Assembly: GCA_000421325.1 (NCBI GenBank)
Contig: ATWQ01000015.1
Location: 1 to 43,677, forward strand
DNA from: an alpha proteobacterium SCGC AAA536-K22
GTDB taxonomy: Bacteria > Pseudomonadota > Alphaproteobacteria > Puniceispirillales > Marisalimonadaceae
DNA: 43,677 bases
Reading direction: 5' to 3'
Within the stretch, counting starts at the first letter, position 1. Each line of letters opens with the position of its first letter. A program made the position numbers and the translations under genes. Shown here in pieces: positions 621 through 43,677 of the stretch. The notes beneath the pieces are model-generated. The model was not told where the DNA came from. It made no database searches and was given only the letters and a program-made list of their open reading frames with translations.

Positions 621-853
621 AAACTAAACGCACTTTCGAAAAGAGTAAGCATGACTGTGAGGCAGGATCTTACTACTGGACAAGCCATCATCACAAACAA
701 CTTTTCAATGCATCTGCATGTCTATTGTAAAGATTTTAATAAGTTCTCCGCTAGACAGAATTAGGACACGAAACTAGCAGGTTTTCCTCCTTCCGAGCCC
801 ATTAACCGGCTCATATTAGAAGAAGCTCTTCTATAATCATAAACTTATGTGAT
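621..853. other. Non-coding gap with no recognised gene
   Basis: No convincing coding sequence is visible. Bases 795-812 form a short hairpin (gagcc, 8-base loop, ggctc). The stretch lies between integrase debris and the 3' end of the truncated gmhB-like gene and is probably decayed sequence. Confidence 0.4.
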
Positions 854-1263
854 TTACTTGGTAAGAGATAATTTTAGCCTTTGTACGTTAGGTATTGATT
901 TGATAAATGTCTCCAAATCCACATCACCATCAAAAAGAAATCCAGGTACACCTGCATACTCAGCAGCCATTAAGTCAGTTTGCTTATCGCCCACTAAAAA
1001 ACTGTTCGTTACATCCACATTCCAGGTCTCAATCAAATTTGTAATCATGCCTGGATTTGGTTTTCGCCAAGGATGATTATGATGACGATATTGTTCCTCA
1101 ATCGCATACTCGTGATAAGGACAAAAGCGAACATCATCAATGTGGCCATTAAACTCTTCTAGGTCGTAAAAAATCTTAGCCATGACCGTATTATAAGCTT
1201 CCACGGTGAACTTACCCTTGGCAATTCCAGCCTGATTCGTTACTATAAAAACAAAAAAACCAA
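854..1263 (-). pseudogene. 5'-truncated GmhB-like HAD-IIIA phosphatase
   Basis: The translation resembles D-glycero-beta-D-manno-heptose 1,7-bisphosphate 7-phosphatase and the related HAD-IIIA histidinol-phosphatase domain. Visible motifs are the Thr motif II region (FIVTNQAGIAKG), the zinc-type loop CPYHEY, the KPNPGM lysine motif III and the acidic motif IV LVGDKQTDLMAAEYAG. About 136 residues remain. The N-terminal part, with the catalytic DxD nucleophile motif, is absent: upstream of about 1263 the frame runs into unrelated residues because that DNA encodes the primase on the other strand. It is therefore almost certainly inactive. Family members make LPS heptose precursors; no partner genes are nearby. 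A chimeric join cannot be excluded. Confidence 0.72.
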
Positions 1264-1377
1264 GCTGATTTAGGTAATGGAGAGAGATTTGCACGACACA
1301 ATAAAGGCAAGGCAATTTTTTGCATTGAACAAAAATGTTGGTATGCATATGAAGAAGGACGATGGCTAAATCAAACA

Positions 1378-2604
1378 ATGTCTGTTTTTAAAATGGCAGA
1401 AAAAACAACTAAAGATATAAACGCTGAAATAGCTAGTCTACCAGATTTTTCGGATCAAATAAAAAAATGGGCTAAAAACTCAGAAAACGTTACGAGACAA
1501 AAAGCGATGTTGGAAACTGCAAGACATCACTTGGATACTAATTTTAATAAATTTAATAATAATAAATTTTTATTTAATTTAAATAATGGCACTTATGATC
1601 TCAAACAATCAAGGATAAGAAACCATGAACCAAAAGATTTAATAACAGCAAAAACAAGTTTTAATTTTGATCCTGATGCTAATTGTCCTGAATGGATTAA
1701 GTTTATTGATCAGGTAACAAATCAAAATATTGATCTTCAAAAATATATCCAAAAACTTTGTGGATATTGCCTAATCGGAGAAAGAAATGAGCAGATTATT
1801 GTCTTTATTGTAGGTCCTGGTGCCAATGGGAAAAGTGTTTTTATAAATACACTGTCACATGTTTTTGGTGATTATGCAGGCGTAATTAACGCCAAAGCGC
1901 TTATTTCTGGAAATTATGGATCTATACCAAGTGACATTGCTGGTTTGTACGGCAAAAGATTAGTAACTTTGTCTGAGTTTCCTGAGGAAGCCACATTAAA
2001 CACAACTCTTATAAAATCAATAACTGGTAATGATAAATTAACAGCTAGACATTTATATCAGAGTTGGTTTGAATTTTACCCCGAGTTTATGTTGATGTGT
2101 GCAATGAATCAAATGCCTGAGATAAGAGAAGATGATATAGCATTTTTTAGAAGGCTAAAACTTATTGAATTTACAAAAACTTTTTCAGAAGAAGAGATGG
2201 ATAAAAATTTATCTAACAAACTTAGGAATGAATCTGAAGGTATATTTAATTGGTGTTTTGAGGGTTACCAACTCTATAAAAGTGAAGGATTAAAAGATGC
2301 TGAATGTATCAAAACATCACTTAAATATTATATTGAACGCAATAGTCCTCTTATTGAGTTTTTTAAGCAACATATATTAGTAACGAATGAAGAGACTGAC
2401 AAAATTTCTATTAACAGTATGTGCGATTATGCGAATGAGTTTTCAAAAAGTTTGTATGGAACAATAATTGAAAAAAATACAATATATAAATTTTTTAAAT
2501 CTCAAGGACATTTTCCAAAACAAAAAAGGATAAGATCAGAAAGAATACGATGCTATCTAGGGTTAAAATATATATCATTAAGTGACGGTGAAGTTCCATT
2601 TTAG
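1378..2604 (+). CDS. P4/D5-type primase-helicase, 5'-truncated
   Basis: This matches the C-terminal helicase half of phage/plasmid P4-family primases (D5 N-like plus SF3 ATPase). Walker A GPGANGKS is at residues 146-153, a Walker B-like RLVTLSEF lies near 194, and the sensor/arginine region CAMNQMPEIR precedes FFRRL. A winged-helix-like tail follows. The first ATG is at 1378, but the same frame is open upstream to 1249. Residues encoded from about 1264 (ADLGNGERFARH) match the conserved DLGNAxRF segment of this family, so the true gene started further upstream and has lost its primase (AEP) domain at the join with the gmhB-like remnant. In intact elements this protein opens and primes a small replicon. 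As it stands it could supply only a helicase, if expressed at all. Confidence 0.85.
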   Translation: MSVFKMAEKTTKDINAEIASLPDFSDQIKKWAKNSENVTRQKAMLETARHHLDTNFNKFNNNKFLFNLNNGTYDLKQSRIRNHEPKDLITAKTSFNFDPDANCPEWIKFIDQVTNQNIDLQKYIQKLCGYCLIGERNEQIIVFIVGPGANGKSVFINTLSHVFGDYAGVINAKALISGNYGSIPSDIAGLYGKRLVTLSEFPEEATLNTTLIKSITGNDKLTARHLYQSWFEFYPEFMLMCAMNQMPEIREDDIAFFRRLKLIEFTKTFSEEEMDKNLSNKLRNESEGIFNWCFEGYQLYKSEGLKDAECIKTSLKYYIERNSPLIEFFKQHILVTNEETDKISINSMCDYANEFSKSLYGTIIEKNTIYKFFKSQGHFPKQKRIRSERIRCYLGLKYISLSDGEVPF

Positions 2605-2695
2605 TGTCACACTTGTCACAAGGGATTAGGAACTTTTTTATATATATTTTTTTTTATACAAAAAGTTAATAAATAGCAGTGACATTTGTGACACT
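2603..2695. other. Possible replication origin: inverted TGTCAC motifs around AT-rich DNA
   Basis: Agtgtcacacttgtcac (2603-2619) and gtgacatttgtgacact (2679-2695) are inverted copies with two mismatches. They enclose about 60 bases that are almost pure A/T, with a T9 run. The block starts at the primase stop codon. Paired iteron-like words flanking an unwinding-prone segment beside a P4-type helicase resemble the origin layout of satellite replicons. A strong transcription terminator is less likely, because the arms are 60 bases apart. Origin function is inference. Confidence 0.4.
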
Positions 2696-2736
2696 TATCT
2701 TGTTATTTTTTGAACAATCCTAGCATTATCCTAGAT

Positions 2737-2850
2737 CCATGGTCCTTGGATGATTTTACTTTTATCATGGTTTAAAGACCCAAAGATAACTTCCTTGTGA
2801 AACAAAACTATCGAACACTCATGATACCTTGAACCAAGAACCAAGGACCA
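2737..2850. repeat. GGTCC/GGACC-rich inverted repeat in a 303-base gap
   Basis: Ccatggtccttgg (2737-2749) and ccaaggacca (2841-2850) are inverted copies; gaaccaagaaccaaggacca adds further near-repeats. The same vocabulary (ccatgg, ggtcc, ttgacc) recurs at 6340-6415, 6597-6655 and 7850-7866, always outside genes and only within the island zone. Nothing else is recognised between the primase and the DUF1501 gene. Confidence 0.5.
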
Positions 2851-2907
2851 ATGCCCATGTATCACCGTACTAAGGGTGGTGAAAAGTTATGTTTTATTAG
2901 TTTTAAT

Positions 2908-4065
2908 TTAAATAATATCAGAGTTTACAAATTTAGAAAAAGGGTTGTCGTCAATATTAAAATGTTTCCTTAAAACAAATTCATATATGGACCTATAATC
3001 AACTTTATAATTAATATTATTATTCCACAAATTACTTAAATCATCATACTGACCTGTGATACCTCCTTCAATACTTCCACCTAAAATAAAATGGGGAGCT
3101 GCCATACCATGGTCAGTACCTCTAGATCCATTTTCGTTAGCTCTTCTTCCAAATTCAGAATAAGTCATAATAAGAGTATCCTTCCAAACTCCAATATCCT
3201 TAAGAGCATTTATTGTAGATGAAAGAGAGGTATCTAAATCTCTTAATAAATTTCTATGAGTGTTTGATTGATTATTATGCGTATCAAAACTGCCTAGTGC
3301 TACTTTGTAAACAGGAATATATACATCAGAAGCAATTAAATTACATACATTGGTTAATTGTTTACCTAATTGACCACCTCCAAACGAGTATTTGTTTTTA
3401 ACTTTACTAAATTTATTAGTTAAGGTTTTTAATAAACTTGAGTTTTCTTTTCTTTTTTTTATTATTTCATTTAATAATCCAAAGCTTTTTCTTGTATCTA
3501 CTGGAACAACAGTGTCTCTAATTTCAATTTCCTCTGGCTCTAAACCTATAGCGGTTGGTCCTAAAAACCCATTTTGTCCACCTCTGAAAATTGAATTTGA
3601 GTTATCCAAAAACATACCTTTTGCATCTGTAGATAATTTGTTACTATATTTGTTTAAAGAGTCTACAAGCCACCCATTTCTATATTGTTTTTTGCCGTCT
3701 CCACCTGTTTCCCATATATCAATTGATCTAAAATGTGATAAAATAGCGTGGGGATATCCTAAATTTTGAACGATCTTAACGTTTCCATTTTCATATGTTT
3801 TAGCAATATTTTTTAAACTATAATGAAGTCCGTTATCTTCAGAAATTGTCAGTATTTTATTTTTTTTTATTCCAATATTTGGCCTTAATCGATAATAGTA
3901 TTTCTGATTTAATGGAATAACTGTATTAAGCCCATCATTAGCTCCTTGAAGTTCAACTAAAATTAAAATTTTTCTATTTAATTTTGACCAAACAAGCGAA
4001 GGAAATCCTGAAAAAAGAAAAGTATAACCTGCTAAAGATAAAAACTCCCTTCTACCTTGAATCAT
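2908..4065 (-). CDS. DUF1501 family exported protein with Tat signal
   Basis: DUF1501 is a sulfatase/alkaline-phosphatase-fold family of exported proteins with uncertain substrates. The N-terminus has a twin-arginine signal (RREFLSLAG, residues 5-13) followed by a hydrophobic stretch. Family landmarks are ELQGANDGLNTVIP near residues 38-51, HFRSIDIWETG, GSFDTHNNQ, YSEFGRR and GTDHGMAAPHFILGG towards the C-terminus, the last carrying likely metal-binding D/H residues. The length of 385 is normal. Its ATG overlaps the TGA of the upstream DUF1800 gene (ATGA), so the two are co-translated; this pairing is widespread in bacteria. The gene is intact although it lies between degraded island genes. 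Function is unknown. Confidence 0.88.
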   Translation of the reverse strand: MIQGRREFLSLAGYTFLFSGFPSLVWSKLNRKILILVELQGANDGLNTVIPLNQKYYYRLRPNIGIKKNKILTISEDNGLHYSLKNIAKTYENGNVKIVQNLGYPHAILSHFRSIDIWETGGDGKKQYRNGWLVDSLNKYSNKLSTDAKGMFLDNSNSIFRGGQNGFLGPTAIGLEPEEIEIRDTVVPVDTRKSFGLLNEIIKKRKENSSLLKTLTNKFSKVKNKYSFGGGQLGKQLTNVCNLIASDVYIPVYKVALGSFDTHNNQSNTHRNLLRDLDTSLSSTINALKDIGVWKDTLIMTYSEFGRRANENGSRGTDHGMAAPHFILGGSIEGGITGQYDDLSNLWNNNINYKVDYRSIYEFVLRKHFNIDDNPFSKFVNSDII

Positions 4066-6230
4066 TTTAATTGGTATCCTTCGTGACTTAATATATTTAT
4101 GTAATCCTCATTATTAAAACTTAAATCTAAATCAGGTAGTAAAATTTCAGACAACTTTAAATCAATATTATGAATTTTGTTAGTATCAAAGTGAGTATCA
4201 AATGTTTTGATGCTGTGCATTTCGTAATAATTTAGTCCGTATCTTTCAATTCCACACTTAAATCCATTATCGTTTTTTGATAAATTATAGGAGTTAGCAG
4301 GATATGAAAATATTTTTGTAGAGTGTTTTTTTGAGTTTTTGTTGAGAATTTTTTTAACTTCTTTAACTCTTTCACTTAAAAAAATTTTAGCTGCCGAATT
4401 AGTCTGAAGTCTAGTATAATATTTATCTTTTTCTAGAACATGTTCCATTGACAAAAGAAGATGATATAATAGTTTTTTAGTAATACTATTTTGTTTATTA
4501 AATCTTTTCATTTTGGGACCTGTTGGGAAAGAACTTGAGATATGTCTGGTCGCTCTATATTCTGAAAAAGAACCTGCATCCCAGTTACTAATAATTTCAG
4601 GATAACTATAGCCATGATAAAATTTAAACCTGTTGAATTGTTTATAGCTTTTATTACTATTTTTATCTGTACCAAACTCTATCTCAATGCCTTTCCATTT
4701 TTTCCCCATAAATTGCACGTTATAAAAAAATGTTTTTAAGCCAACAGAATTTCTAGTTTCAAAATCATCTGGTATATAACCTAATAAAATTGTTTCAACT
4801 ACAAACTGTTCTTTGCTACTTTTATCAAAAAAAGCCTTCAAATCATTATTATATTTATCACTTTCTTCATCACCAAATAATTTCGCATCCATTATATTTT
4901 CTTCTTTATTAAAAATATTTTGAAAAGCTGACGAAATATGCTTTATTCTTGAATTCAATTTTTGTCCACTTAGCCAATCCTTACCTACTGACCAGCCCGC
5001 AATATTTGGAGGGTTAAATAATTTTTGTCCAGATGTCTCCATTAATTCAATTAAATTATAATGACTTTTAACATCTTTGCCAGACACGTTAAGTGTTCTA
5101 GCTGTACCGTAAAATAATTCAAGAGGTGATTTAACAAGCGATAGTTTATTATTCCAAAAACTTTTAAGCATTAATACGCCTCTAAGCATTTCAGATATTT
5201 GATAATCATGCTTTCTAAAATGTGATACTAAAAATGATAAATCTTGAGTATTTGGTTTTTTTAAATCCACATATTCTTGGTAAAATTTTAAGGCAATATA
5301 CTCACCAAAAGATGGATGGTTAGTTAAAATTTTAAAAAACTCTTCATCATTTTTATATTTTTTTCCAAAGGCTGTATAAGTTTCAGCTGATTGTTTGTAT
5401 TGGTATAATTTGTATTGTTCCGTAATATGATTTATAGAGTTTCCAGACAGATGCTTTGCAAAATTTTTTATGTCATTTTCAGTATAATTACCTTCGCCCA
5501 AACTAAATAATTCAAAAAATTCTCTAGCTAAATTTTCATTTGGATTTCGAGCAAAGCTTTTTTCATTGTTCAAGTATACTATCATTGCTGGATCTCTAAT
5601 AATATTCTTAAGAAAACTCACAAAGTTTTTGTTGGTATTATTTCTTATTATTTTTAGATGAGTATAAAAGGAATGTTTTTGTTTATACATGTTAAAATTA
5701 ACTGAAAAATGATTAAGCCAGAAAATAGCTAATCTCTCATATTGCGGTGTTTTGCTTGATACTAATTTTTCTAGCCACGTTGTCTTTAGGGATAAAAGAA
5801 AGGATTGATCATCGCAATTAATACGATGAGCTTTTATTCCACGTTGCATAAAACTTGTAGGAATTGCTTCATTAGTCCACCTAGGCCATATAGTATTGTC
5901 TTTGTATTTACTTAAGTTTAAAACAATGTCGTTTATGGCTTCTCGCCTTGACTTGCCTATATGTAGTTTAATTCTATCAACTGGTGCTCCAAACCCAATT
6001 CTTTTCTCTAGCCTAATTGCCTCTTTTTTTGTTATAATTTTATCTAAGTGACTATCCTCAAATTTGTTCAAATCAAAAATAAGATCTTTTCTAATTTTAG
6101 GTTTTGTGGTTGATAATGATTTACTACTGGTTATTATTCCACCTTTAAAAGTGGTTTTAGCAAAGACATAATTGATAGAATAGGTAGAGGACTGAATTAT
6201 TATAAACAAATAAAATAAAACTTTAATCAC
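4062..6230 (-). CDS. DUF1800 family exported protein
   Basis: This is a large DUF1800 protein of 722 residues. It has an N-terminal signal peptide (hydrophobic residues about 3-24) followed by the family's opening RIGFGAPVDRI near residue 76, the segment ERLAIFWLNHFSVN, and the hallmark NENLAREFFELFSLGEGNYTE around residues 230-250. The C-terminal third is less typical. The start is GTG at 6230, with an AGGAG about eight bases upstream. It is the first gene of a two-gene operon with DUF1501. The pair is usually predicted to act outside the cytoplasmic membrane; the biochemical role is not established. It is the only intact cargo between the two long direct repeats. Confidence 0.85.
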   Translation of the reverse strand: MIKVLFYLFIIIQSSTYSINYVFAKTTFKGGIITSSKSLSTTKPKIRKDLIFDLNKFEDSHLDKIITKKEAIRLEKRIGFGAPVDRIKLHIGKSRREAINDIVLNLSKYKDNTIWPRWTNEAIPTSFMQRGIKAHRINCDDQSFLLSLKTTWLEKLVSSKTPQYERLAIFWLNHFSVNFNMYKQKHSFYTHLKIIRNNTNKNFVSFLKNIIRDPAMIVYLNNEKSFARNPNENLAREFFELFSLGEGNYTENDIKNFAKHLSGNSINHITEQYKLYQYKQSAETYTAFGKKYKNDEEFFKILTNHPSFGEYIALKFYQEYVDLKKPNTQDLSFLVSHFRKHDYQISEMLRGVLMLKSFWNNKLSLVKSPLELFYGTARTLNVSGKDVKSHYNLIELMETSGQKLFNPPNIAGWSVGKDWLSGQKLNSRIKHISSAFQNIFNKEENIMDAKLFGDEESDKYNNDLKAFFDKSSKEQFVVETILLGYIPDDFETRNSVGLKTFFYNVQFMGKKWKGIEIEFGTDKNSNKSYKQFNRFKFYHGYSYPEIISNWDAGSFSEYRATRHISSSFPTGPKMKRFNKQNSITKKLLYHLLLSMEHVLEKDKYYTRLQTNSAAKIFLSERVKEVKKILNKNSKKHSTKIFSYPANSYNLSKNDNGFKCGIERYGLNYYEMHSIKTFDTHFDTNKIHNIDLKLSEILLPDLDLSFNNEDYINILSHEGYQLK

Positions 6231-6480
6231 AATAATATTCTCCTATATATAAGCATATTATTATCATAAAAACTTATTGTAAAGATTATATCAATGAGAC
6301 ATTTTAGGATAATAAATACATCCCACCATCTCCACCAACCCATCCTTGAACCCTGGTCCGTGTTCCATGGACTACGGTCAATGGGAAGATCACCCCCTGA
6401 CCATTGACCATTGTTGATTAGGAAAAGGGTGCAGTAACCCCGGATCATGGGCTTTATCTCTTGTAGACAAGGTTGTAGAC
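6231..6480. other. Island intergenic DNA with GGTCC words and a tandem 11-mer
   Basis: There is no credible gene. Bases 6340-6415 are rich in interlaced ggtcc/ttccatgg/tgaccattgacc words like those at 2737-2850. Ttgtagacaag occurs twice (6461-6471 and 6473-6483). The same word precedes and overlaps the start codon of the intact integrase on the other strand (about 7797-7807), suggesting integrase-leader debris. Confidence 0.45.
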
Positions 6481-6590
6481 AAGCTTTTGTCATTGACGGA
6501 TTCATGGATTTTGCTAAGCTATTGATATAGTTGGAGTTTAGACTAAACCATTGCTCTGGTTAGGCATCACACCTCTTCTCGAGCGCACCA
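6481..6590 (+). repeat. Direct repeat copy 2, ending in att core
   Basis: Identical to 1-95 over 95 bases and to 97-110 after one mismatch, in the same orientation, exactly 6480 bases from copy 1. It ends in the tRNA-Arg 3' sequence. This fits the far end (P arm plus core) of an element that entered the tRNA-Arg remnant at 260-322, which would make 323-6590 the inserted element. Confidence 0.85.
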
Positions 6591-6622
6591 AAAACGTCCG
6601 TGGACAGTGGTTAAGTGTCTGA
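6574..6622 (+). other. att-like site, inverted relative to 7840-7888
   Basis: The 20-mer tcttctcgagcgcaccaaaa (6574-6593) is identical to the 3' end of tRNA-Arg plus three bases. The similarity runs on through ccgtgga-gtggttaagtgtctga to 6622. The partner lies at 7840-7888 on the minus strand. The two sites face each other across the integrase, so a recombinase acting on them would invert rather than excise the segment. Confidence 0.6.
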
Positions 6623-6661
6623 TTTTCATGAATAAACGATTCCCTGACCAAGGACCTTTAA

Positions 6662-7795
6662 CTAAATCTTATTCATCCAATCATATTTAACTTCTAACGT
6701 ATATCCAGATCCATAAGATTGGCCTACAGTTTTTGTTGACCAACCTCCAATCGCATCAACAATATCAGAGGGACATTGGACGGCTCTAAGTCTATCTCTT
6801 AAGCTATGTCTAAAAGAATGAATTACGCAATCATCTGGTATTCTTGGCTTCAGCCATTTGTTAAGTCCATTACTTGCTGAGTTAGCATTGCACTTTTCAT
6901 CGTTTGTGTACCTTGGGAAAGCAAATTGGTTGTTTTCACTTATGATTTTTTTTGCTGCCCATAGAGAAGCTCCTATAAGAGGAATAGTTCTATTACTCCC
7001 TTTGGTCTTAAGTCGTCTCCATGGGTGATTGATTATGTTAACATGAGGCATTTCTGTACTTAATATTATATCACTTGTGAGTAAACCAACTGCTTCTGAT
7101 AAACGCATGCCTGTGTCACTAATCAAGGCAATTAACCACCTGTTGTCATCGTTTAAGTTTTTACATTCAGTTTGAATATTTCTTATAATTTTAATTGGAA
7201 TTGGGAGTCTAATTTTTTTCTTATTGTCGTCTGGAATGAATGTTCCTGAAAATGGATTTTTCATATTAATACCAAATTCATTTACAGTGATGTTGATCAC
7301 TGCGTTGATGGACGAAAATATACGTTTAACAGAAGAAGTGGATAATCCTTTTTTAAATAAGAAATCTCTGTACCTTGCAGCATCAATAGACTTTAAGGAG
7401 GTGATATCTACGTCACCAAAGCATTCTATTGTATAAGATATATTTCTTAAAGCAGTTCGATGAAAAAGCTCACCTTTACCAATACCTTTTAACTTGATGT
7501 AAGTGTCTAATGCTTTACTTAGTTTTACTGTTTCTGTTTTTGATTTTTGGTTATCAAGAAAACTGAGCTTTAATTCTTTGGTGTGGAACAATTCTAATCT
7601 TAGTGTGTTCCAATAAGTTTCAAGACGATCAGTTAATTTATTAGCAGATTCTATAGCTTTTTGTTTTGACGATGTTCGTAGAGAAATTACCACTCTATTC
7701 TTATTAAATTTTGTTTTTAAGTCTGATGGCACCTGTCTTGTGAAGTAATAAATACCATTTCTTTGATATAAATAATGAGGTGATCTTGTATACAT
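6662..7795 (-). CDS. Tyrosine recombinase/integrase (tRNA-Arg type)
   Basis: A 377-residue phage-type integrase. The N-terminus (YLYQRNGIYYFTRQVPSDL) is an arm-binding domain like DUF6538, followed by a SAM-like core-binding domain (about residues 85-175) and the catalytic domain. Catalytic landmarks are the Arg in DTGMRLSEAVGL, the HSFRH motif, GGWS and the nucleophile Tyr in QSYGSGY near residue 360. All appear intact. The start codon lies 76 bases from the 3' end of tRNA-Arg, the classic position for an integrase using that tRNA as attB. A decayed relative lies at 404-620. It probably mediates site-specific integration, excision or inversion at the repeated tRNA 3' end sequences here. Confidence 0.92.
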   Translation of the reverse strand: MYTRSPHYLYQRNGIYYFTRQVPSDLKTKFNKNRVVISLRTSSKQKAIESANKLTDRLETYWNTLRLELFHTKELKLSFLDNQKSKTETVKLSKALDTYIKLKGIGKGELFHRTALRNISYTIECFGDVDITSLKSIDAARYRDFLFKKGLSTSSVKRIFSSINAVINITVNEFGINMKNPFSGTFIPDDNKKKIRLPIPIKIIRNIQTECKNLNDDNRWLIALISDTGMRLSEAVGLLTSDIILSTEMPHVNIINHPWRRLKTKGSNRTIPLIGASLWAAKKIISENNQFAFPRYTNDEKCNANSASNGLNKWLKPRIPDDCVIHSFRHSLRDRLRAVQCPSDIVDAIGGWSTKTVGQSYGSGYTLEVKYDWMNKI

Positions 7796-7839
7796 CCTTG
7801 TCTACAGCCTCCGAGTTCCTAAAAATTAATTCAAGGAAT

Positions 7840-7888
7840 TCAGACACTTAACCACGGTCCACGGATGGTTTTGGTGCGCTCGAGAAGA
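7840..7888 (-). other. attL-like site overlapping the tRNA-Arg 3' end
   Basis: The core tcttctcgagcgcaccaaaa (7869-7888, minus strand) spans the T-arm and acceptor 3' strand of tRNA-Arg plus the bases beyond CCA. The adjacent leader ccgtggaccgtggttaagtgtctga is shared with 6594-6622 and more weakly with about 335-375. The site sits between the tRNA and the integrase start. Confidence 0.65.
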
Positions 7889-7948
7889 TTCGAACTCCTG
7901 ACCCCTAGATTCGTAGTCTAGTGCTCTATCCAGCTGAGCTACGAGCGC
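7872..7948 (-). tRNA. tRNA-Arg (anticodon ACG)
   Basis: A 77-base gene with encoded CCA. The acceptor arms GCGCTCG and CGAGCGC pair fully. The D-arm (AGCTCAGCTGGATAGAGC), anticodon stem CTAGA/TCTAG with loop CTACGAA, and T-arm with TTCGAAT are all present. Anticodon ACG (read as ICG) decodes CGU/CGC/CGA. It serves as the attachment site for the adjacent integrase, and its 3' end is repeated at 94-110, 311-322 and 6574-6593. Confidence 0.97.
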
Positions 7949-8059
7949 ATTTGTTAAAAACTAATCAATAGTTATCTACTTAAAGAATTATAATCAAGTA
8001 AGAAATAAATATTATAATTTTGTAAATTTTGGTGTAATAAGCATTATAAAGATTTTTAA

Positions 8060-34609: not shown

Positions 34610-35997
34610 TTTTCAAAATTTTAAAATTAATTATATTTATTTTACTGATTTGGTATTTATCAGAATTTTTTGCTAACTCTGAAGGTGAAACCTCTGTAAA
34701 TTGGATGGGATGGGGTATTCAAATACCTACGGATAGATTTGTTTTAATATTGATTTTATTTTCTATTTTAATAATTTTTATTGATAGAATTTGGCTTGCA
34801 TTTTTAAATTTTCCCAAGGCAGCTTTTAGAAGATCCGAAGTTAATAACAATAAAAAAGTAGAACAAAAACTAGTCAAAGCATTTTTACTGGCCAGTCATG
34901 GAGAATTTGAGTCCGCTGCAAAAGAAGCTTCTCTTGTTGCCAAAAACACCAAAGATAAAAATTTAGGAAAATTATTAAGCACACATTTAGATGTTTTTAA
35001 AAACTTAAATGAAAACTCTACAAATAAAAAAGAGTTATCAAAAAATTACTTTAAGCAACTTACCGCTGAACCTTCAACGGCATTTGTTGGTCATTTAGCT
35101 TTAATGAGACAAGCAATATTAGATAAAAAAGATACAAATGAAATTATAGAAGAGGCAGAAAAGGCAATTAAATTTGAGCCAAAATCAAAGCAAATTTTAA
35201 AAGTCTTACTTTTTTCATATGCAAAAGTAGGTGATTTGTCAAATTCTCTTGTTTATCTAAATAAATTAAAAAATATGAAATATGTAAGCCTTAAAACTCA
35301 TCAAAATATTGCTTCAGATTTAAATTATATGTGTGCATTAGATTATTTAGAAAAAGGGAATATCAATTCTGCAACAAATCATCTTAAAGAGGCCTTTAAA
35401 CAAAAACCAAATCATATTTTAGTATCAATAAAATTAGCAAATTTGCTGAAAGGTATTGGTTCAAAAACTAAATCAATCAATCAATTAGAAAAAACTTTTT
35501 TACTTACATCAAATCATGATGTTTTAGACGAGTTGTCAAAAAAGTGGGATTTAAAAACATCTGGTGCACGTGTTGCAAAAGCAATAAATTTGCTAGGTAA
35601 AAAATCATCTAAAGAAATAAAAAATGATCTTAAAATTGCAGTAGCTTGTTATGCGATTTCAGAAAAAATTTGGGGTGAAGCAGAAAAATTATTAACCGAA
35701 GTGCCTGAAAATAAGCTCACCAACAGGGCCTATCAAGCCTTTGCAGATATAGCAGGTTCTCAAAACAATCCTGAAATAGTTAAAGATAATTTAGAAAAAG
35801 CTGCCAATGCTCTTGAAGGGTTTAATTACTTTTGTTCATCTTGTGGAAACAAAAGTAATCAGTGGGAACTACATTGTCCAAAATGTGATCACTTAAGTAC
35901 TATCAAATGGATGAAAATGAATGATGTTGAAATACAAGATAGTATCTCTTTGCCGAACTTTGCTCCATCTACAGACAAAAATTTAATCAGTTATTAA
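34606..35997 (+). CDS. hemY: HemY-like TPR membrane protein with C-terminal zinc ribbon
   Basis: A HemY family protein of 463 residues, starting at a GTG within the GTGA overlap. Two N-terminal membrane helices (about 4-20 and 43-60) flank the HemY segment, and TPR-like helices extend over about residues 85-410. The C-terminus carries two CxxC pairs, FCSSCGN and HCPKC, before STIKWM, a rubredoxin-like ribbon similar to that of LapB/YciM. The protein is linked genetically to haem synthesis; it is not the HemY protoporphyrinogen oxidase of Gram-positives. It ends 15 bases inside the convergent LysE-family gene. Confidence 0.83.
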   Translation: MIFKILKLIIFILLIWYLSEFFANSEGETSVNWMGWGIQIPTDRFVLILILFSILIIFIDRIWLAFLNFPKAAFRRSEVNNNKKVEQKLVKAFLLASHGEFESAAKEASLVAKNTKDKNLGKLLSTHLDVFKNLNENSTNKKELSKNYFKQLTAEPSTAFVGHLALMRQAILDKKDTNEIIEEAEKAIKFEPKSKQILKVLLFSYAKVGDLSNSLVYLNKLKNMKYVSLKTHQNIASDLNYMCALDYLEKGNINSATNHLKEAFKQKPNHILVSIKLANLLKGIGSKTKSINQLEKTFLLTSNHDVLDELSKKWDLKTSGARVAKAINLLGKKSSKEIKNDLKIAVACYAISEKIWGEAEKLLTEVPENKLTNRAYQAFADIAGSQNNPEIVKDNLEKAANALEGFNYFCSSCGNKSNQWELHCPKCDHLSTIKWMKMNDVEIQDSISLPNFAPSTDKNLISY

Positions 35998-36627
35998 AAT
36001 AAAATATTTGATTGCTTTAAAAACCAAATAAAAAGAAAAAAATATTAAAACAGACCCTAAAATTAAAAAAATTAATTTCTGTCTTAATCTTATATAATTT
36101 TCAACAACTTTTATACCTACTGAATAGGAAACTAAGATATACCAAGCTGAGTCAATTATCCCAGCTAAAAATGCCATTCCAAATTTTGTGTAAATACTAT
36201 AATCTTGATTGATAAATTGACTAAAAATTGATGTAAAAAAAATTAATATTTTTGGATTGATTAGAGAAGTTGTCAATCCAAGTACTATGCTTTCTATGGC
36301 TGTTTTGGGTAATTTTATTTTATTATCAACCTCTTTTTCAAATGGTTTTGATAAAAGTATTTTAGAACCTACATAAATAAGGAAAATAGCACCTAAGATT
36401 TGAATAATGGGTATAATAGACGGTAAAATACTGACAATCATACTTAAGCTAAAAATAGAAATTAATGCATAAACAAATATTCCAAATCCATGCGCCAATG
36501 AAGCTATAAAGCCTGAGATGAAATTTTTTGAATTAGTTAAATAAATAATCACAATTAAACTTGGTCCAGGTGTCATAGCACCAATTAGACAAACCAAAAA
36601 AATTGTTAACCATTCAAAAAAACTCAT
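35983..36627 (-). CDS. LysE/RhtB family amino-acid exporter
   Basis: A small six-helix exporter of 214 residues. The family start GAMTPGPSLIVIIYLTNSKN (about 16-35) follows the first helix; next come GFIASLAHGFGIFVYAL and the FIYVGSKILLSKP-type third helix, with TSLINPKILIFFTSIFSQF in the middle. The substrate cannot be deduced. Its C-terminal codons overlap the end of hemY on the other strand. It lies 14 bases after trmL. Confidence 0.87.
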   Translation of the reverse strand: MSFFEWLTIFLVCLIGAMTPGPSLIVIIYLTNSKNFISGFIASLAHGFGIFVYALISIFSLSMIVSILPSIIPIIQILGAIFLIYVGSKILLSKPFEKEVDNKIKLPKTAIESIVLGLTTSLINPKILIFFTSIFSQFINQDYSIYTKFGMAFLAGIIDSAWYILVSYSVGIKVVENYIRLRQKLIFLILGSVLIFFSFYLVFKAIKYFILITD

Positions 36628-36641
36628 AAAATATCCTTGCC

Positions 36642-37106
36642 TTACACCAAATCCTTATACGCATTTTGTCTTAATGCTTCATACACAGTTATTGCGACAG
36701 AATTACTTAGATTAAGACTTCTACTTTTTGCAACCATAGGAATTCGCAACTTATTAGTATTTTTTATCTGTTTTAAAATATTATCTGGTAATCCACTTGT
36801 TTCGCTGCCAAATAAAAAACAATCATTTTTTTTGAAACTGACTTTACTAAAATTTTTCTTTGCAAATTTTGTAAAAGCATAAATTTCATTGAATGTTATC
36901 GATTTCAAGCATAAATCCAGATCATCATAAATAAAAAAATCAGCATCCTTTTTGTAATCTAGACCTGCTCTTTTAAGTGCGTTGTCATTAAGATTAAACC
37001 CTAATGGTTTTATTAAGTGCAACTTTGTTCCAGTATTGGCGGCCAATCTCATAATATTTCCTGTATTAGGAGGAATTTCAGGATTAAATAAAATAATGTG
37101 GAACAT
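36642..37106 (-). CDS. trmL: tRNA (cytidine/uridine-34 2'-O)-methyltransferase
   Basis: A SPOUT methyltransferase modifying wobble position 34 of tRNA-Leu. The 154 residues contain IILFNPEIPPNTGNIMRLAA (about 4-23) with catalytic Asn/Arg, LFGSETSGLP in the SAM knot (about 97-106), and the C-terminal SLNLSNSVAITVYEALRQ. The short size, without an extra RNA-binding domain, is typical of TrmL. Confidence 0.94.
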   Translation of the reverse strand: MFHIILFNPEIPPNTGNIMRLAANTGTKLHLIKPLGFNLNDNALKRAGLDYKKDADFFIYDDLDLCLKSITFNEIYAFTKFAKKNFSKVSFKKNDCFLFGSETSGLPDNILKQIKNTNKLRIPMVAKSRSLNLSNSVAITVYEALRQNAYKDLV

Positions 37107-37154
37107 ATACTTTTCTTTACTATTTAATCATTAAGTAAACTTTAAGTGTTTGGT

Positions 37155-37604
37155 TTAATCTAATGATCCTTCAAGTATATATTTTAGAATTCTCATAACT
37201 TGATGTTGATCTTTTGCTACAGCAGCGGCAGCAGCGTCTACTTCTTTGAGGGCATGTTGATGCTCCTCATTATGAATTACTATAATTGACTTGTTTAGAG
37301 CAGCTGCATATCCTGCGTCAAATGCGGCATTCCATTGCTTGTATTTCTCTCCAAATTTTACAATAACAACATCACAATCTTTTATTGATTTTCTTGTTTT
37401 TATAGAATTTATGTTTGCGCCCTTGTTATCTTTCCAGAAGTTTTTTTCTTCATTACCTAGAATTTCAACTCCACAATTATCTGACGCTTCGTGATTTGTA
37501 ATTGGAGAAGAAAAGGAAATTTGTAAATATTCTTTACTACATAAGTCTATTATTTCTTGGCGCCAATCACTGTGAATTTCACCTGAAAGATATACGTTTA
37601 ACAT
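37155..37604 (-). CDS. YtoQ family protein
   Basis: A 149-residue protein matching the YtoQ family: LNVYLSGEIHSDWRQEI at the start, SSPITNHEASDNCGVEILG, CDVVIVKFGEKYKQWNAAFD in the middle and HQVMRILKYILEG at the end. The fold resembles nucleoside 2-deoxyribosyltransferases (the VVIVKFG and FDAGYAAAL segments), but the activity is unknown. An alanine run (AAAAAVAK) lies near residue 132. Confidence 0.85.
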   Translation of the reverse strand: MLNVYLSGEIHSDWRQEIIDLCSKEYLQISFSSPITNHEASDNCGVEILGNEEKNFWKDNKGANINSIKTRKSIKDCDVVIVKFGEKYKQWNAAFDAGYAAALNKSIIVIHNEEHQHALKEVDAAAAAVAKDQHQVMRILKYILEGSLD

Positions 37605-37615
37605 TTCTAACTCCT

Positions 37616-38836
37616 TTAAATTTTATTTTGAGGTAATAATTTGGGTGCCTGTGTCATTGTAATAGCTAATGAAATACTTGCGACAATAGCTATTATAAAC
37701 ATTCCAAACAAAATTATATCATAATTAATGTTTAAGTCTAAAAGTTTGCCAACAACAGCAGGGCCAATCGCTGTTCCAAAAACCATTGTAGATGTTGATA
37801 AAGATCTAACGGATCCCAAATTTTTAGTACCATAATACGTTGGCCAAAAAGTTCCTCCAATAGTCATTGCTAAACCTTGTGTCATGCCTAAACATGCTAG
37901 CCCAAACATAGCGTTTATGTAGGTACTACTAAAAGAAAATATTAGTAAACCTAACCCCATGGGAATAAGGTAGAATGGTAAAATTTTTTCAACGCCAAAT
38001 TTGTCTAGCATCCAACCTGAACTCAAAGTGGTTAAAATTGACATTCCAGTATAGAAGGGGAATAAAGCTGTAAAAGAAATTAAGGACCAGTTTTTTACTT
38101 CGGTAAGATGAACCATATTAAAAAAGAATGCAGTCGAAAAGATTGGAGGGATTAAAAAAGGTACAATTACTGCCCAGAAAACCCAATTATTAAGAACTTC
38201 TTTTCTTGTCCAATGCTTGTAACTCATTCCTAATTGATTAGTAATATTCTCCTGTTTACTATTTGGTATTCTTTCGTTTGATAGAAGATTTAATATGATT
38301 GGCAGTATCAACAACAATATTATCATTCCAATTATCCAGCTATTTCTCCAACCTATAATTGCAAATAAACTAACAAATATAACTGGAAAAATTGCCTCAC
38401 CAATTGAAAATCCCATAATTGAAATCGATAATGCCTTTCCTTTATTTTTTCCATACCATTTGCCTATGGCAACAGCAGGTATATGAGTGAGCATCCCTTG
38501 TCCAAAAAACCTTAATCCAAAAATTATAAAAGGGAGAAGCCAAATTATACTGACAAATGTCATAGATAGGCAAAGTAGACTTAAGGAAATAATAACAATT
38601 TTTATGTTTAAAGTAATTTTATATTTATCGATATATCCACCAAAAATTAGCATTGCGATAGCTGAGGCTAGTGTTCCACCTGAATAGATGAATCCCCAAT
38701 CTCCGTGCGATAAATCAAACGTTTGTCTTATTTCTCCAGCAAATAATGAAATAAAAAATGTTTGTCCAAAACATGAACAAAAATATAAAAAGGCAGTTGC
38801 TATTAACCATCTAGCATTTTGTATTAAGAAATTCAT
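37616..38836 (-). CDS. Major facilitator superfamily transporter
   Basis: A 12-helix MFS permease of 406 residues with the motif-A-like loop GGYIDKYK between helices 2 and 3 and the related GWMLDKFG between helices 8 and 9. It resembles the monocarboxylate/oxalate-type group, but the substrate is not readable. It lies between a dioxygenase and YtoQ on the same strand, so it may import the compound handled by the DapA-like and PhyH-like enzymes encoded upstream in the corrected gene order. Confidence 0.85.
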   Translation of the reverse strand: MNFLIQNARWLIATAFLYFCSCFGQTFFISLFAGEIRQTFDLSHGDWGFIYSGGTLASAIAMLIFGGYIDKYKITLNIKIVIISLSLLCLSMTFVSIIWLLPFIIFGLRFFGQGMLTHIPAVAIGKWYGKNKGKALSISIMGFSIGEAIFPVIFVSLFAIIGWRNSWIIGMIILLLILPIILNLLSNERIPNSKQENITNQLGMSYKHWTRKEVLNNWVFWAVIVPFLIPPIFSTAFFFNMVHLTEVKNWSLISFTALFPFYTGMSILTTLSSGWMLDKFGVEKILPFYLIPMGLGLLIFSFSSTYINAMFGLACLGMTQGLAMTIGGTFWPTYYGTKNLGSVRSLSTSTMVFGTAIGPAVVGKLLDLNINYDIILFGMFIIAIVASISLAITMTQAPKLLPQNKI

Positions 38837-38899
38837 AAGGATCCATTGATATCATTCTATTAAGATTATATGATCCTTAAATAATATTAAGGCAATAGT

Positions 38900-39874
38900 T
38901 TAAATTTTTAATTCACCTATGTCTTTATTTTCAATACCAAGAAAGGTATCTGTTGGGTTCCCAATCCTTCCATACCCGTTCCATACTTTAAAACCAAACA
39001 ATTCTTTTTGATAATTATTAAGTTGTAAAAAAATTTCTTTCTTTATTCCTAATGTAAAATTTTCTTGAGGTCTAAACTGTGGACCACAAAAAGTTATTAA
39101 TATAGCTAATCTTTCTTCTTTAGAAATATTTGCACCTGTTCCATGCCACACTCTTCCGTCTGTTATTATTGCACACCCTGGAGGTCCTTCTGCAGATATA
39201 GTTTCAATGTTTTTATCAATATTTTTATCAGGATGACGACCAAATAAGTGAGAACCTGGAACTATCAAAGTACCTCCATTTTCTTTATTCATACCATTTA
39301 ACATAATTAATACATTTGAAACCACAGGCCGTGATATAAGTTCATTATTATAAACAATATTCTTATTAACTTTGATATTAAATTTTTTTCTGTCTATAGA
39401 GCCGGAAGGCAAAAAATCTTCGTCTCTTTTTACAGGGTCAGGTAACCACCACTGATCTGTATGAAGGTCCATAGCAACGCCTCCAGGCTTAGCTATGTTC
39501 GCTCCAAAGCTAGAGATTAGATACTCACTACCAACTACTTGCTTGATACAATCGACATAGTTGTGATGTTCTAAAATTTCTAAAAATACAGCACCCTTAT
39601 TAGGAAGCATCCATACTCTTTGGTTGATGCCTTTATTATTTTTATTTTTATTAAATTCGCCCCATTTTTTAGTTTTGCTACCATCCTCATATGCAATATT
39701 TAATTTCTTTTCAGCTGCTGCCTGCTCTATCAATCTTTCCAAAACTTTTTTATTTAGATCAGAAGGAATAGCATTTTCTAAAAGGCAATATCCCCATTTT
39801 TTAAGATCATTTTTGGCAACTTCAATCGATTTTGTTGGTTTAGGATAATTTTTATTCAATTTATTATTCTCCAT
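38900..39874 (-). CDS. Phytanoyl-CoA dioxygenase (PhyH) family oxygenase
   Basis: A non-haem Fe(II)/2-oxoglutarate oxygenase of 324 residues. The facial triad is visible as HTD in DLHTDQWWLPDP (about residue 138) and the distal His in DGRVWHGTGANIS, followed by the 2-oxoglutarate Arg in KEERLAILITF. PGSHLFGRHPDK is a typical loop. The substrate is unknown. Rejoining the split DapA-like gene would place it directly after that aldolase, suggesting one catabolic operon. Confidence 0.9.
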   Translation of the reverse strand: MENNKLNKNYPKPTKSIEVAKNDLKKWGYCLLENAIPSDLNKKVLERLIEQAAAEKKLNIAYEDGSKTKKWGEFNKNKNNKGINQRVWMLPNKGAVFLEILEHHNYVDCIKQVVGSEYLISSFGANIAKPGGVAMDLHTDQWWLPDPVKRDEDFLPSGSIDRKKFNIKVNKNIVYNNELISRPVVSNVLIMLNGMNKENGGTLIVPGSHLFGRHPDKNIDKNIETISAEGPPGCAIITDGRVWHGTGANISKEERLAILITFCGPQFRPQENFTLGIKKEIFLQLNNYQKELFGFKVWNGYGRIGNPTDTFLGIENKDIGELKI

Positions 39875-39902
39875 TTAATCCTAATTGGCTAAAACCTCCA
39901 CA

Positions 39903-41120
39903 TTAAATTAAATTTAAATTTGTTAATGCATTTTTAACCAATTTTTTTTGATCATCAGTAGCAGGTGCTGTAGGTCTTCTTGCAAACCCGCTTTCAAGTC
40001 CTTGAAGATTTTGGGCATATTTACATAAAGAAGGCATGTTATCTAAACCAATTGCATCCCATAATGGCATTAACCTCTCATGAAGATCTTTAGCTTCGTT
40101 CCAATCTTCTGCTATTACAGCGTTCCACAATTTGACGGATGGTCCAGGTGCGGCTGTTAAGATTGCAGCAATAGATCCAGGAGCACCAAGTTGGTATGAA
40201 GAGTAAAGGAGTGCGTCTACAGCACTAAAAATCATATTCTCTGGTTTTGCTCTTCTTATAAGATCAGCGAAAAGTTTCATATCTCCAGCTAATATAACTA
40301 TGATGGCTCCAATCAAGACCTCAGTTTCTAACTTTTCTTTAAAAATTAAAACACCAATTATAGAAACAAAAACTAATTGAAGATATGTAAATGGTTGCAG
40401 TAAAGAAGCTTCACTATGTTTAAATGCATTAATCATTAGAAAGTGTCCACCAGCGCCAAGCATACAAACAACAAGTAACCATAACCAATGCAAGTTTTCT
40501 ATTGAGGTATAAAAAAATGGCCCTATTGAACCTAATATAACAAAACCAGTTATGCCAGTATAAAAAAGACTAGTGTCAGGACTGTCTTCACTTGATACAT
40601 ATCTTGTCAAAATTTGGTAAATCGCAAAGGCAAAGGCGCAAACCAGTGCAATCAAAGATAATGGGTCAAAAACTTTAGAACCGGGTCTTAGCATAATCAA
40701 GATCCCCAAAAATCCTACTAGAATTGCACACCATCTTCTCCATCCAACTTTTTCTCCCAAAAAAAATACTGATAAAGCCGCCACAATAAGGGGACAACTT
40801 GCAAAAATAGCATGGGTTTCAATAAGTCCTATTTTAAAGAAAAGATAATGTGCAAAACACATTTCAATCGCTAAAATGGTACCACGAATAATTTGTATTT
40901 TTTTATACTTACTCTTAGATACAATAATTACACTTTTATTTCCTATACCATTTATTGAAATTACAAATAAAAATAAAAAGAAATATCGAAACATGTTGAT
41001 AGTAATGACATTATAATAATCTGTTAAATACCTAGTGAAGCCATCCATTAGAGACAGACAAAATATTGCGGACACAATAAAAATTATGCCCTTAGTATTT
41101 GAAGAAAATTTTGTGGGCAT
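39903..41120 (-). CDS. Chimeric ORF: EamA (DMT) transporter joined to DapA-like C-terminus
   Basis: Residues 1-277 are a ten-helix EamA permease: two repeats, with FFKIGLIETHAIFASCPLIVA and VFLGEKVGWRRW in the first and HSEASLLQPFTYLQLVFVSI and IFKEKLETEVLIGA in the second. It stops short of the usual last few residues. Residues 278-405 are instead the C-terminal part of a dihydrodipicolinate synthase family protein, identical over the shared 95 bases to the gene at the right edge. The junction falls at gctggaga, where only those bases are common. No known family fuses these two folds. The ORF is best read as two genes artificially joined: a truncated transporter (about 40290-41120) and a DapA-like tail (39903-40289). 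Confidence 0.85.
   Translation of the reverse strand: MPTKFSSNTKGIIFIVSAIFCLSLMDGFTRYLTDYYNVITINMFRYFFLFLFVISINGIGNKSVIIVSKSKYKKIQIIRGTILAIEMCFAHYLFFKIGLIETHAIFASCPLIVAALSVFFLGEKVGWRRWCAILVGFLGILIMLRPGSKVFDPLSLIALVCAFAFAIYQILTRYVSSEDSPDTSLFYTGITGFVILGSIGPFFYTSIENLHWLWLLVVCMLGAGGHFLMINAFKHSEASLLQPFTYLQLVFVSIIGVLIFKEKLETEVLIGAIIVILAGDMKLFADLIRRAKPENMIFSAVDALLYSSYQLGAPGSIAAILTAAPGPSVKLWNAVIAEDWNEAKDLHERLMPLWDAIGLDNMPSLCKYAQNLQGLESGFARRPTAPATDDQKKLVKNALTNLNLI
40195..40289 (-). repeat. 95-base inverted repeat, internal copy
   Basis: The reverse complement is identical to 43583-43677 over all 95 bases. It encodes the DapA-like segment starting AGDMKLFADL. The base at 40290 differs from its counterpart 43582, which marks the join with the transporter gene. 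The other border coincides with the end of the window. Confidence 0.95.
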
Positions 41121-41142
41121 ATTATTTTTAACTTTCAGAACT

Positions 41143-42027
41143 TTAATAAAAATTAATAGTTTTATTTATACCATTATCAAGTGAAGTGTATTTAAAATCC
41201 TTGAAAGTTTTAGATGGTTCACCTCCAAGTATTTCTTCGACTACACTTAATGGTTTACCACTAAATTTTACATTTGCATTTGGTATATTCTTTTTAATAA
41301 TAGAAACAAAATTTTCAACGCTTGTTGTTATTCCATTAATATTCATAGTTATTGCTCCAACAGGAGCTTTATCAATTAATCTTTCAACTAAATTTGTAAC
41401 ATCTTCAACATATACAAAACCAACCTTCCCTGAAAAACCAACTGTGTATTCAAAATTTTGTTTTGCTGCTTTACAAGCTAAGGTAACACCTGCAGTTCCA
41501 CCAACTTCTCTTCCAGGCCCATAAATTACAAATGGCCTTAACCCAACACTAGAAATTAAAGATTCATTAAAATAGGCTCTAGCCATTCCTTCAACAGCTA
41601 ATTTAAAGGCACCATAATGTGTTTCAGGAAATGGATTATATTTATCTTCATTACCATAAACTCCGCCACTACTAGTATAAATAAGAAATTTAATATTATT
41701 TTTTTTTATGGCCTCAAAAACATTAATTGAACCTTTAACATTTACTTCAGCTCCCAAAGACGGATTAGAACTACAATCTGGTGTCATCAAACCAGCTAAA
41801 TTTAAAATATAATTCATGTCTTCAGTCGCTTTTAAAACTTGTTCATAATCAGAAATGTCACCTTCAATAAAGTTTATTTTATTAAGGTCATTACCTATGA
41901 GATTTTTAAGCAAGTCTGTTTTAATTCTAAGATCAAATATGGTTATCTTAAGATTTTTTTTTAAAAGGGCTTTTGTTATCCAACTTCCAAGAAAACCACA
42001 TCCACCAAATATAAGTATATTTTTCAT
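41143..42027 (-). CDS. NAD-dependent epimerase/dehydratase (extended SDR)
   Basis: An extended short-chain dehydrogenase of 294 residues. The Rossmann motif GGCGFLGSWI is at 7-16, with ADxxD-type EGDISDYEQVLKA and NLAGLM. The catalytic YTSSGGVYG and Y-x3-K (YGAFK) and the substrate loop RPFVIYGPGREVGG are present. The substrate is probably a nucleotide sugar or related polyol. Its ATG abuts the stop of the hydrolase gene upstream, and the transporter follows after 22 bases, so the three form an operon. Confidence 0.88.
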   Translation of the reverse strand: MKNILIFGGCGFLGSWITKALLKKNLKITIFDLRIKTDLLKNLIGNDLNKINFIEGDISDYEQVLKATEDMNYILNLAGLMTPDCSSNPSLGAEVNVKGSINVFEAIKKNNIKFLIYTSSGGVYGNEDKYNPFPETHYGAFKLAVEGMARAYFNESLISSVGLRPFVIYGPGREVGGTAGVTLACKAAKQNFEYTVGFSGKVGFVYVEDVTNLVERLIDKAPVGAITMNINGITTSVENFVSIIKKNIPNANVKFSGKPLSVVEEILGGEPSKTFKDFKYTSLDNGINKTINFY

Positions 42028-42984
42028 TTAAGCGCTTCTATTACATAACATTGATTTTGCAGCACCGCCTATTTCCTTTATACATTCAAGCGATTTTGGA
42101 AAATGTTTTGAATTTGATAAAAAACCATGAATTTGCCCTGAGTATAATTTGTAGGTCACTTTATTACCAAAATATTCTAATCTTTTTTTATATGCTACAC
42201 CCTCATCTAACAGTGGATCCAACCCTGCTGCAAAAATGAATGTTTCCGGCATATTCTTTAGATCACTTGTGAATAATGGTGAAGCTTCCCAGTTCACTGA
42301 GTCTTTTTTACTTTTTAAATAATGATCAATAAAATAATTCATGGTTTCATAGGTCAAAGTCATTCCATCCAAATTTATATCCATTGATCTCATAGTTAAG
42401 GTTAAATCAACACATGGGTATATTAGAATTTGTCCTTGAATAGGGACAATATTTTTTTTAGAGGAATTAATAGCTAATACTGTAGCTAAATTCCCTCCTG
42501 CACTGTCTCCACAAACAAACAAATTATTTAGGTCTATACTGAATTCATTTTCAAAATCAGATAGAGATTGAAGTACGTCCTTTGACTCAGACAAAGCATG
42601 AGGAAATTTATATTCTGGTGAGAGACTATAATCGACTGCAACAACGATCATTTCTGCTTCATTGCAAATAGATCTACAAGTATAATCATGTGTCTCTAAA
42701 TTTCCCATTACAAACCCTCCGCCGTGAAAAAAAACTATAATTGGCGTTTTAATATTTTCATTAAAGTTATCAGGAAAATAGAACCTCAAATTGATGTCCT
42801 TATCGGATCTACTCTTTATTCTTTTATTTTTAAAAGCAGAGATTTTAGGAGGTATCAAATTATCTTCTTTTAACTGTTTTAAACGTTCCTCCCTAAGGTT
42901 TTTGGGCTCTAATAGGTGATGAAGTTTAGAGTTATTTTTTACACGCTGTTCTAAGAAAATTTTTGTTTCTTTATCTATAATCAT
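42028..42984 (-). CDS. Alpha/beta hydrolase (hormone-sensitive-lipase family esterase)
   Basis: An HSL/GDSAG-type esterase of 318 residues with oxyanion motif HGGG at 87-90, nucleophile Ser161 in CGDSAGGNLA, acid Asp in GLDPLLDEG near residue 256 and catalytic His in GQIHGFLS near 287. The N-terminal cap (about 1-70) is present and no signal peptide is seen, so it is likely cytoplasmic. It is the first gene of a minus-strand operon and divergent from the DapA-like gene. Confidence 0.9.
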   Translation of the reverse strand: MIIDKETKIFLEQRVKNNSKLHHLLEPKNLREERLKQLKEDNLIPPKISAFKNKRIKSRSDKDINLRFYFPDNFNENIKTPIIVFFHGGGFVMGNLETHDYTCRSICNEAEMIVVAVDYSLSPEYKFPHALSESKDVLQSLSDFENEFSIDLNNLFVCGDSAGGNLATVLAINSSKKNIVPIQGQILIYPCVDLTLTMRSMDINLDGMTLTYETMNYFIDHYLKSKKDSVNWEASPLFTSDLKNMPETFIFAAGLDPLLDEGVAYKKRLEYFGNKVTYKLYSGQIHGFLSNSKHFPKSLECIKEIGGAAKSMLCNRSA

Positions 42985-43087
42985 GACTATCTTCTCAATT
43001 TATTTCCTTTATTTTTTATCTTAATTTTTATAATTTATTAATTTATACTAATTTAAGAATCAATAAAACTCTAGGGGGAAGAGAAAC

Positions 43088-43677
43088 ATGACCAAGCTAA
43101 AAGGTATTATTGCGCCTTTCACAACTCCATTTACTGAAAATGGAGATATTAACTTAAACTTGATTAAGCCACAAGTTGATTGGTTGATTGAAAACGGTGT
43201 TCATGGGTTAGCCGCTGGAGGAAGCACAGGAGAAGGTCATGTTCTTAATAGAGACGAGTATGTATCCCTTATGAGAAAAACATCAGAAGCATTAAACAAT
43301 AGAGTGCCCCTAGTAGCTGGAATAATTGCCAATTCAACTTCTGAAGTAATAGCTAGAGGTCAGTCTGTGAAATCTCTAGATGTTTCTGCGCTTCAAATAA
43401 CTCCACCTAGTTATTTATTTAGACCAGACGATGATGCTATGGTTAAACATTTCCAAGAAATACATAAAGAATGCAAAATTCCTATTCTTATTTATAATGT
43501 TGTTCCGTGGTGCTATTTATCTCCTGACTTACTTTTAAGAATAATGGATGAAGTTCCCGGTGTGTTAGGGGTCAAACAAAGTGCTGGAGATATGAAACTT
43601 TTCGCTGATCTTATAAGAAGAGCAAAACCAGAGAATATGATTTTTAGTGCTGTAGACGCACTCCTTTACTCTTCATA
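43088..43677 (+). CDS. Dihydrodipicolinate synthase family aldolase, 3' end cut by window
   Basis: A class I aldolase of the DapA/NAL family. Seen here are residues 1-196: IIAPFTTPFTENGDI at the start, the pyruvate-carboxylate motif GGSTGEGH, Tyr136 in IYNVVPW and the Schiff-base Lys163 in GVKQSAGD. GGGGGAA lies just upstream of the ATG at 43088. The missing C-terminus appears on the minus strand at 39903-40289; 165 residues before the repeat plus 128 from it give 293, the normal family length. It lacks DapA-specific context (dapD/dapE are elsewhere) and neighbours a dioxygenase and MFS, so a catabolic 2-keto-acid aldolase is more likely than lysine synthesis. Confidence 0.88.
   Translation, partial: MTKLKGIIAPFTTPFTENGDINLNLIKPQVDWLIENGVHGLAAGGSTGEGHVLNRDEYVSLMRKTSEALNNRVPLVAGIIANSTSEVIARGQSVKSLDVSALQITPPSYLFRPDDDAMVKHFQEIHKECKIPILIYNVVPWCYLSPDLLLRIMDEVPGVLGVKQSAGDMKLFADLIRRAKPENMIFSAVDALLYSS
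43583..43677 (+). repeat. 95-base inverted repeat, terminal copy
   Basis: Identical to the reverse complement of 40195-40289, ending exactly at the last base of the window. Together with the 95-base repeat at the left end it looks like a k-mer overlap at an unresolved assembly branch. Confidence 0.95.

Follow-up and report, generated by a model that had tools for sequence, protein, structure and literature searches.

An apparent EamA transporter-aldolase fusion at a contig end of an alphaproteobacterial draft genome is very probably an inverted amplification chimera

Among the chimeras of multiple-displacement amplification described by Lasken and Stockwell (2007), 406 of 475 were inverted, 337 of these joined segments less than 10 kb apart, and complementary words of 2–21 nt primed more than 70% of the junctions, according to the excerpted text (PMC1855051). 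A second amplification study, likewise in excerpt, reports that most chimeras were inverted (PMC10945365). A join of this form lies near one end of the window, by which we mean the whole stretch analysed: 43,677 nt of alpha proteobacterium SCGC AAA536-K22 (assembly GCA_000421325.1, contig ATWQ01000015.1), which is the complete contig C15 of its draft genome. Here the frame of an EamA-family transporter runs into the C-terminus of a dihydrodipicolinate synthase (DHDPS)-family aldolase, the N-terminal half of which lies on the other strand at the contig end. We regard it as almost certain that this is an inverted DNA chimera which arose during amplification and was assembled into the contig, and not a real gene fusion. 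The locus resembles the chimeras of PMC1855051, as excerpted, in that an inverted join links segments less than 10 kb apart (here 3.3 kb) and perhaps in a short complementary word at the join (here at most 6 nt); it differs in being an assembled contig and not a single read. The features involved are:

39903..40289, minus strand: last 128 codons (C-terminal part) of the aldolase gene, moved here by the probable chimeric join (PF00701, profile 164–287)
40195..40289, minus strand: 95-base arm, an exact inverted copy of the contig end 43583–43677, probably one overlap of a k=95 assembly graph that was output two times
40284..40289, minus strand: probable chimeric junction; the shared word, gctgga, is no longer than 6 nt and encodes Ala-Gly in either gene (blastn block ends; AG in 37/37 EamA tails)
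40290..41120, minus strand: EamA-family transporter, residues 1–277, true tail missing (Pfam EamA, 3.6e-27)
43088..43677, plus strand: first 196 codons (N-terminal part) of the same DHDPS-family aldolase gene, truncated where the contig stops (PF00701, 5e-37, profile 1–191 of 289)
43583..43677, plus strand: the other copy of these 95 bases, forming the tip of the contig

The two arms form an inverted repeat in which 95 of 95 bases are complementary, with a spacer of 3293 nt; since 43677 is the end of the contig, the second arm is its very tip. BLASTN comparison with the corresponding locus of a relative (L046) gave two oppositely oriented blocks, window 34688–40289 matching 1–5601 and window 40284–43677 matching 8900–5507 in reverse, both at 89% identity. 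These blocks overlap by 6 nt in the window and by 95 nt in L046, position 5601 being joined to 8900 with the intervening 3.3 kb skipped. With four further loci (L047, L048, L049 and L050) the inner ends of the two blocks were again 40289 and 40284, and the second block was likewise in opposite orientation; in comparisons with L051 and L053, which are more distant, that block starts at 40321 instead. Stretches of genomes G035 and G022 are collinear with the window from about position 7.9 kb up to 40289, and the remainder of the contig shows no inversion other than the join at 40284–40289.

The apparent fusion frame (39903–41120, minus strand) encodes 405 amino acids, being transporter through residue 277 and aldolase from residue 278, with a Pfam EamA match followed by a PF00701 match over residues 278–400. 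The plus-strand half, open from 43088 to 43675, is 94–96% identical to intact genes in the five closest relatives (G001, G034, G035, G022 and G032), while the minus-strand half is 95–97% identical to the same gene in L046–L050. A preliminary description of this DNA had proposed that the transporter frame switches into the C-terminus of the very DapA-like gene whose N-terminus lies on the other strand, the copies sharing 95 identical bases; the complementary profile ranges of the two halves (164–287 and 1–191) and the exact repeat bear this out. It had also proposed a short shared word at the join, and this part stands, although the word is not gctggaga but at most the six bases gctgga, the remainder of the longer string already being aldolase sequence. 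The aldolase, too, reads Ala-Gly at this point; with the same dipeptide in 37 of 37 EamA tails, the shared word is explained by a chance likeness of two codons. At six nucleotides or fewer it may fall within the published range of 2–21 nt.

When the halves are joined at their shared bases, the 293-residue aldolase with Tyr136 and Lys163 that had been predicted is indeed obtained, and 279 of its 293 residues (95%) are identical to the intact gene of L047. That orthologue (L047 8386–9267) matches PF00701 over profile positions 1–287 of 289 (4.2e-54), a whole-profile match to the DHDPS/N-acetylneuraminate lyase family of which the two halves here cover complementary parts. Its YNV and GVK stretches, in which Tyr136 and Lys163 fall, align to IYNV and GVK of the solved synthase 3flu; from family knowledge we take these residues to be the catalytic tyrosine and the Schiff-base lysine. 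The L047 orthologue differs from the DapA equivalog (TIGR00674) in scoring 160.8 bits, below the cut-off of 206.15, and a separate gene above that cut-off (335.6 bits) sits on contig C14 of the same genome. An identification of the broken gene as the dapA of the lysine pathway was therefore rejected; judged by score, the intact gene is a DHDPS-family aldolase and not the lysine enzyme. The draft genome comprises 92 contigs, down to 506 bases in length, and is 79.8% complete; searches of it exclude the 42 short contigs C51–C92 (49,116 bases, read as N). Within that scope no second close copy of the aldolase was found, a full-length copy elsewhere having been named as one part of what would speak against a chimera.

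For comparison, 77 loci encoding a relative of the aldolase were collected from named relatives, the nearest being alphaproteobacteria of the SAR116 cluster. Many of these near relatives carry AG- or AH- codes, which we take to be single-cell plate names. In all 77 the aldolase frame is open across the site of the join, with N-terminal through C-terminal matches as far as the contig reaches, and in none of the 77, judged from best-hit pairs, does EamA run into the aldolase C-terminus. With EamA and PhyH scored as present at 45% identity or more, EamA lies divergently upstream in 38 loci and PhyH downstream on the same strand in 41; 37 have both, five have one only (L074, L085, L123, L125 and L126, the contigs of which begin or end within the locus) and 35 have neither, these being mostly more distant relatives judging by their titles. 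The complete order, EamA-epimerase-hydrolase divergent from aldolase-PhyH-MFS-YtoQ, is present on a single contig in 35 of the 77 loci. Five of the 35 (L072, L075, L095, L112 and L124) are titled MAG (metagenome-assembled genome) and bear no plate-type isolate name; if they are metagenome bins, the order would not depend on single-cell amplification, but the label is a weak one since some plate-named records are also titled MAG. Among the 36 genomes of the same genus, 27 have the aldolase at 82–96% identity in frames without stops, and the other nine (including G013, 90% complete) yielded far weaker aldolase matches only.

The transporter itself is 293 amino acids long where intact (L046–L050, L052 and L068). 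Where the EamA match extends at least to residue 270, which is so in 37 loci, the protein in every case ends with AGL[F/Y]TFWRE and a few further residues, 15–23 residues past residue 276. The relatives thus support what the preliminary description predicted: an intact gene at the true locus, the order dapA-like, phyH-like, MFS, YtoQ with a divergent hydrolase-epimerase-EamA run, and a transporter that in the window lacks its true last residues.

Two of the incomplete loci, L125 and L126 (AG-426-B08 and AG-426-I14), are on contigs that begin inside the aldolase gene, with starts at most one base apart.

In L047 the transporter is followed by 5.9 kb with three kinds of gene before a stretch matching contig C48 is reached. 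By their translations we take these to be an SDR gene, a TRAP transporter and a 3-hydroxyacyl-CoA-dehydrogenase-like gene. L047 12030–20000 was used to query the readable genome of the window; among the 40 of 176 first-look candidates that were scored, the greater part of the 5.9 kb that should follow EamA had no match. The matches listed were C48 (1759 nt, 87%), the dctP gene of C11 (81%), C16 (88 nt, 76%) and C14 (110 nt, 69%). As continuations of EamA, C48 was rejected since it begins about 5.9 kb further on, and the dctP gene of C11 since its neighbourhood lies elsewhere in G034; the short C16 and C14 matches lie far inside the query and were not taken for it either.

This dctP gene (L143, G000:C11:62440-63525) shares 93% identity with the dctP that adjoins EamA in G034, but its surroundings match a different locus of G034 (C4), where identity in dctP drops to 84%. 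The two dctP loci may have undergone gene conversion or replacement.

The length of the repeat was compared with overlaps at other contig ends of the assembly. Of the 184 tips of the 92 contigs, the 84 belonging to C51–C92 were dropped and 100 were examined for exact matches of at least 25 nt; as the interiors of C1–C40 other than C15 lay mostly outside the scan, the result is a lower bound. At least nine tips have exact overlaps, of 95, 95, 95, 98, 98, 80, 80, 83 and 83 nt. Those of 95 nt belong to both ends of C15 and to C50, the two of 98 nt to C49, and those of 80 and 83 nt are the pairs C1–C22 and C7–C21, each seen from both sides. A SPAdes run with the settings -sc -k 25,55,95 has been published for mini-metagenomes, as an excerpt describes it (PMC7065516). 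A marine single-cell recipe gives SPAdes --careful --sc, with no k values shown in the excerpt (PMC6122165), and an excerpt on marine single-cell sets names SPAdes without k (PMC4681846). The tip overlaps and the published setting together make 95 the likely k of this assembly. Since 95 is the largest k of that single-cell-mode setting, what looks like a repeat is probably not a duplication but the overlap left in the graph where a 95-mer branches. It resembles a de Bruijn contig-end overlap in being an exact 95-nt match between a tip and another site of the assembly that begins at the branch point, and differs in the company of exact tip overlaps of other lengths.

The true chromosome would then carry a whole aldolase gene followed by phyH, MFS and ytoQ, with the hydrolase-epimerase-EamA run leading away on the other strand. 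During whole-genome amplification a growing 3' end within EamA, at or near gctgga, may have come off its template and primed again, 3.3 kb away, on a displaced strand of that molecule, annealing at the gctgga of the aldolase and extending onward in inverted orientation. Both the genuine N-terminal half and the chimera would then have led the assembler to one aldolase 95-mer. The path it took would have been the chimeric one, perhaps for want of the true EamA continuation, an unamplified gap leaving no other way on. The contig would have stopped at the branching 95-mer, and the 95 bases would for this reason have been written twice.

Several points weigh against this reconstruction. Among ten relatives compared, none has all six bases of gctgga in EamA; nine share five of the six and L051 shares four. 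In the excerpted text of PMC10945365 the segments joined by most chimeras are separated by some 500 bp, with distances reaching 5000 bp, and chimeras account for less than 0.07% of unmapped reads; a spacing of 3.3 kb is inside that range but not typical of it. Tip overlaps of 98, 80 and 83 nt beside those of 95 do not fit a simple k=95 picture exactly. The published -k 25,55,95 run, according to its excerpt, trimmed 200 bp off contig ends and discarded contigs under 2 kb (PMC7065516), unlike the present assembly with its contigs down to 506 bases. The true continuation of EamA could lie in the 42 contigs that read as N. Finally, the case is built from assembled sequence, and it is from the relatives and the incompleteness of the genome that we infer whole-genome amplification of the sample.

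Of the two causes first offered for the join, an amplification chimera and a mis-joined graph path, the former fits better. For the latter, in which scaffolding or gap closing linked two paths with no chimeric molecule involved, it may be said that the contig ends in an apparent graph overlap and that the join stands beside sequence not found in the assembly. There are, however, no Ns at the join, the shared word is too short for a k-mer path, and an inverted orientation within a few kilobases is the commonest form of amplification chimera in the excerpted studies (PMC1855051, PMC10945365). As two paths of a de Bruijn graph built at k = 95 cannot be linked by a word of 6 nt, chimeric molecules probably existed, and we consider a purely computational misjoin improbable.

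Poorer still is the prospect of a true chromosomal inversion or inverted duplication that broke the aldolase and made a real EamA-aldolase fusion protein, which we judge very improbable. The frame does remain open over 405 codons, and both of its parts score with Pfam; yet about one join in three is expected to be in frame, and the fusion is absent from all 77 loci. The 95 bases are exact and end precisely at the contig tip, a simple inversion would place the true EamA tail after 43677, where the contig stops, and neither half keeps the whole aldolase. A recent inverted duplication private to this lineage and seen in this one cell, with the transporter fused to the aldolase C-terminus and the aldolase left broken, is the least credible reading of all.

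Taking the join as an amplification chimera, the fused protein should not be annotated, nor serve as a domain-fusion link between transporter and aldolase, and the species should not be credited with an aldolase pseudogene. Assemblies from amplified DNA could be screened for contig tips with an exact inverted copy, of a length equal to the k of the assembler, inside the same contig, since such a tip is likely to mark a chimera.

The neighbouring genes, all of which belong to the conserved order described above, are:

37155..37604, minus strand: YtoQ-family protein (TIGR03646, 232.8 bits, cut-off 155.35)
37616..38836, minus strand: MFS transporter (PF07690, 1.7e-34)
38900..39874, minus strand: PhyH-family protein, truly downstream of the aldolase (PF05721, 2.4e-14)
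41143..42027, minus strand: NAD-dependent epimerase/dehydratase-family protein, adjoining EamA on the same strand (PF01370, 6.9e-31)
42028..42984, minus strand: alpha/beta hydrolase (Abhydrolase_3), divergent from the aldolase (PF07859, 1.1e-64)

The conserved neighbours, a PhyH-type protein, an alpha/beta hydrolase, an epimerase-family protein and two transporters, suggest a small catabolic cluster, a guess made from their families.

The other end of the contig is also repeated internally: window 1–95 recurs exactly, in direct orientation, at 6481–6575 (95 nt; 99.1% identity over 111 nt). The tips of C49 and C50 match the window at 6412–6509, 1267–1364 and 1183–1277, and this end looks like a second graph knot left unresolved by the assembly. 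Beside it are a gene at 6662–7795, presumably an integrase, and a tRNA-Arg at 7872–7948. A long contig of a relative (G035:C3), 95.8% identical over 1465 nt (window 6486–7950), starts at the equivalent of window 6486, so that both assemblies are interrupted at one site, as might happen at a variable integrated element.

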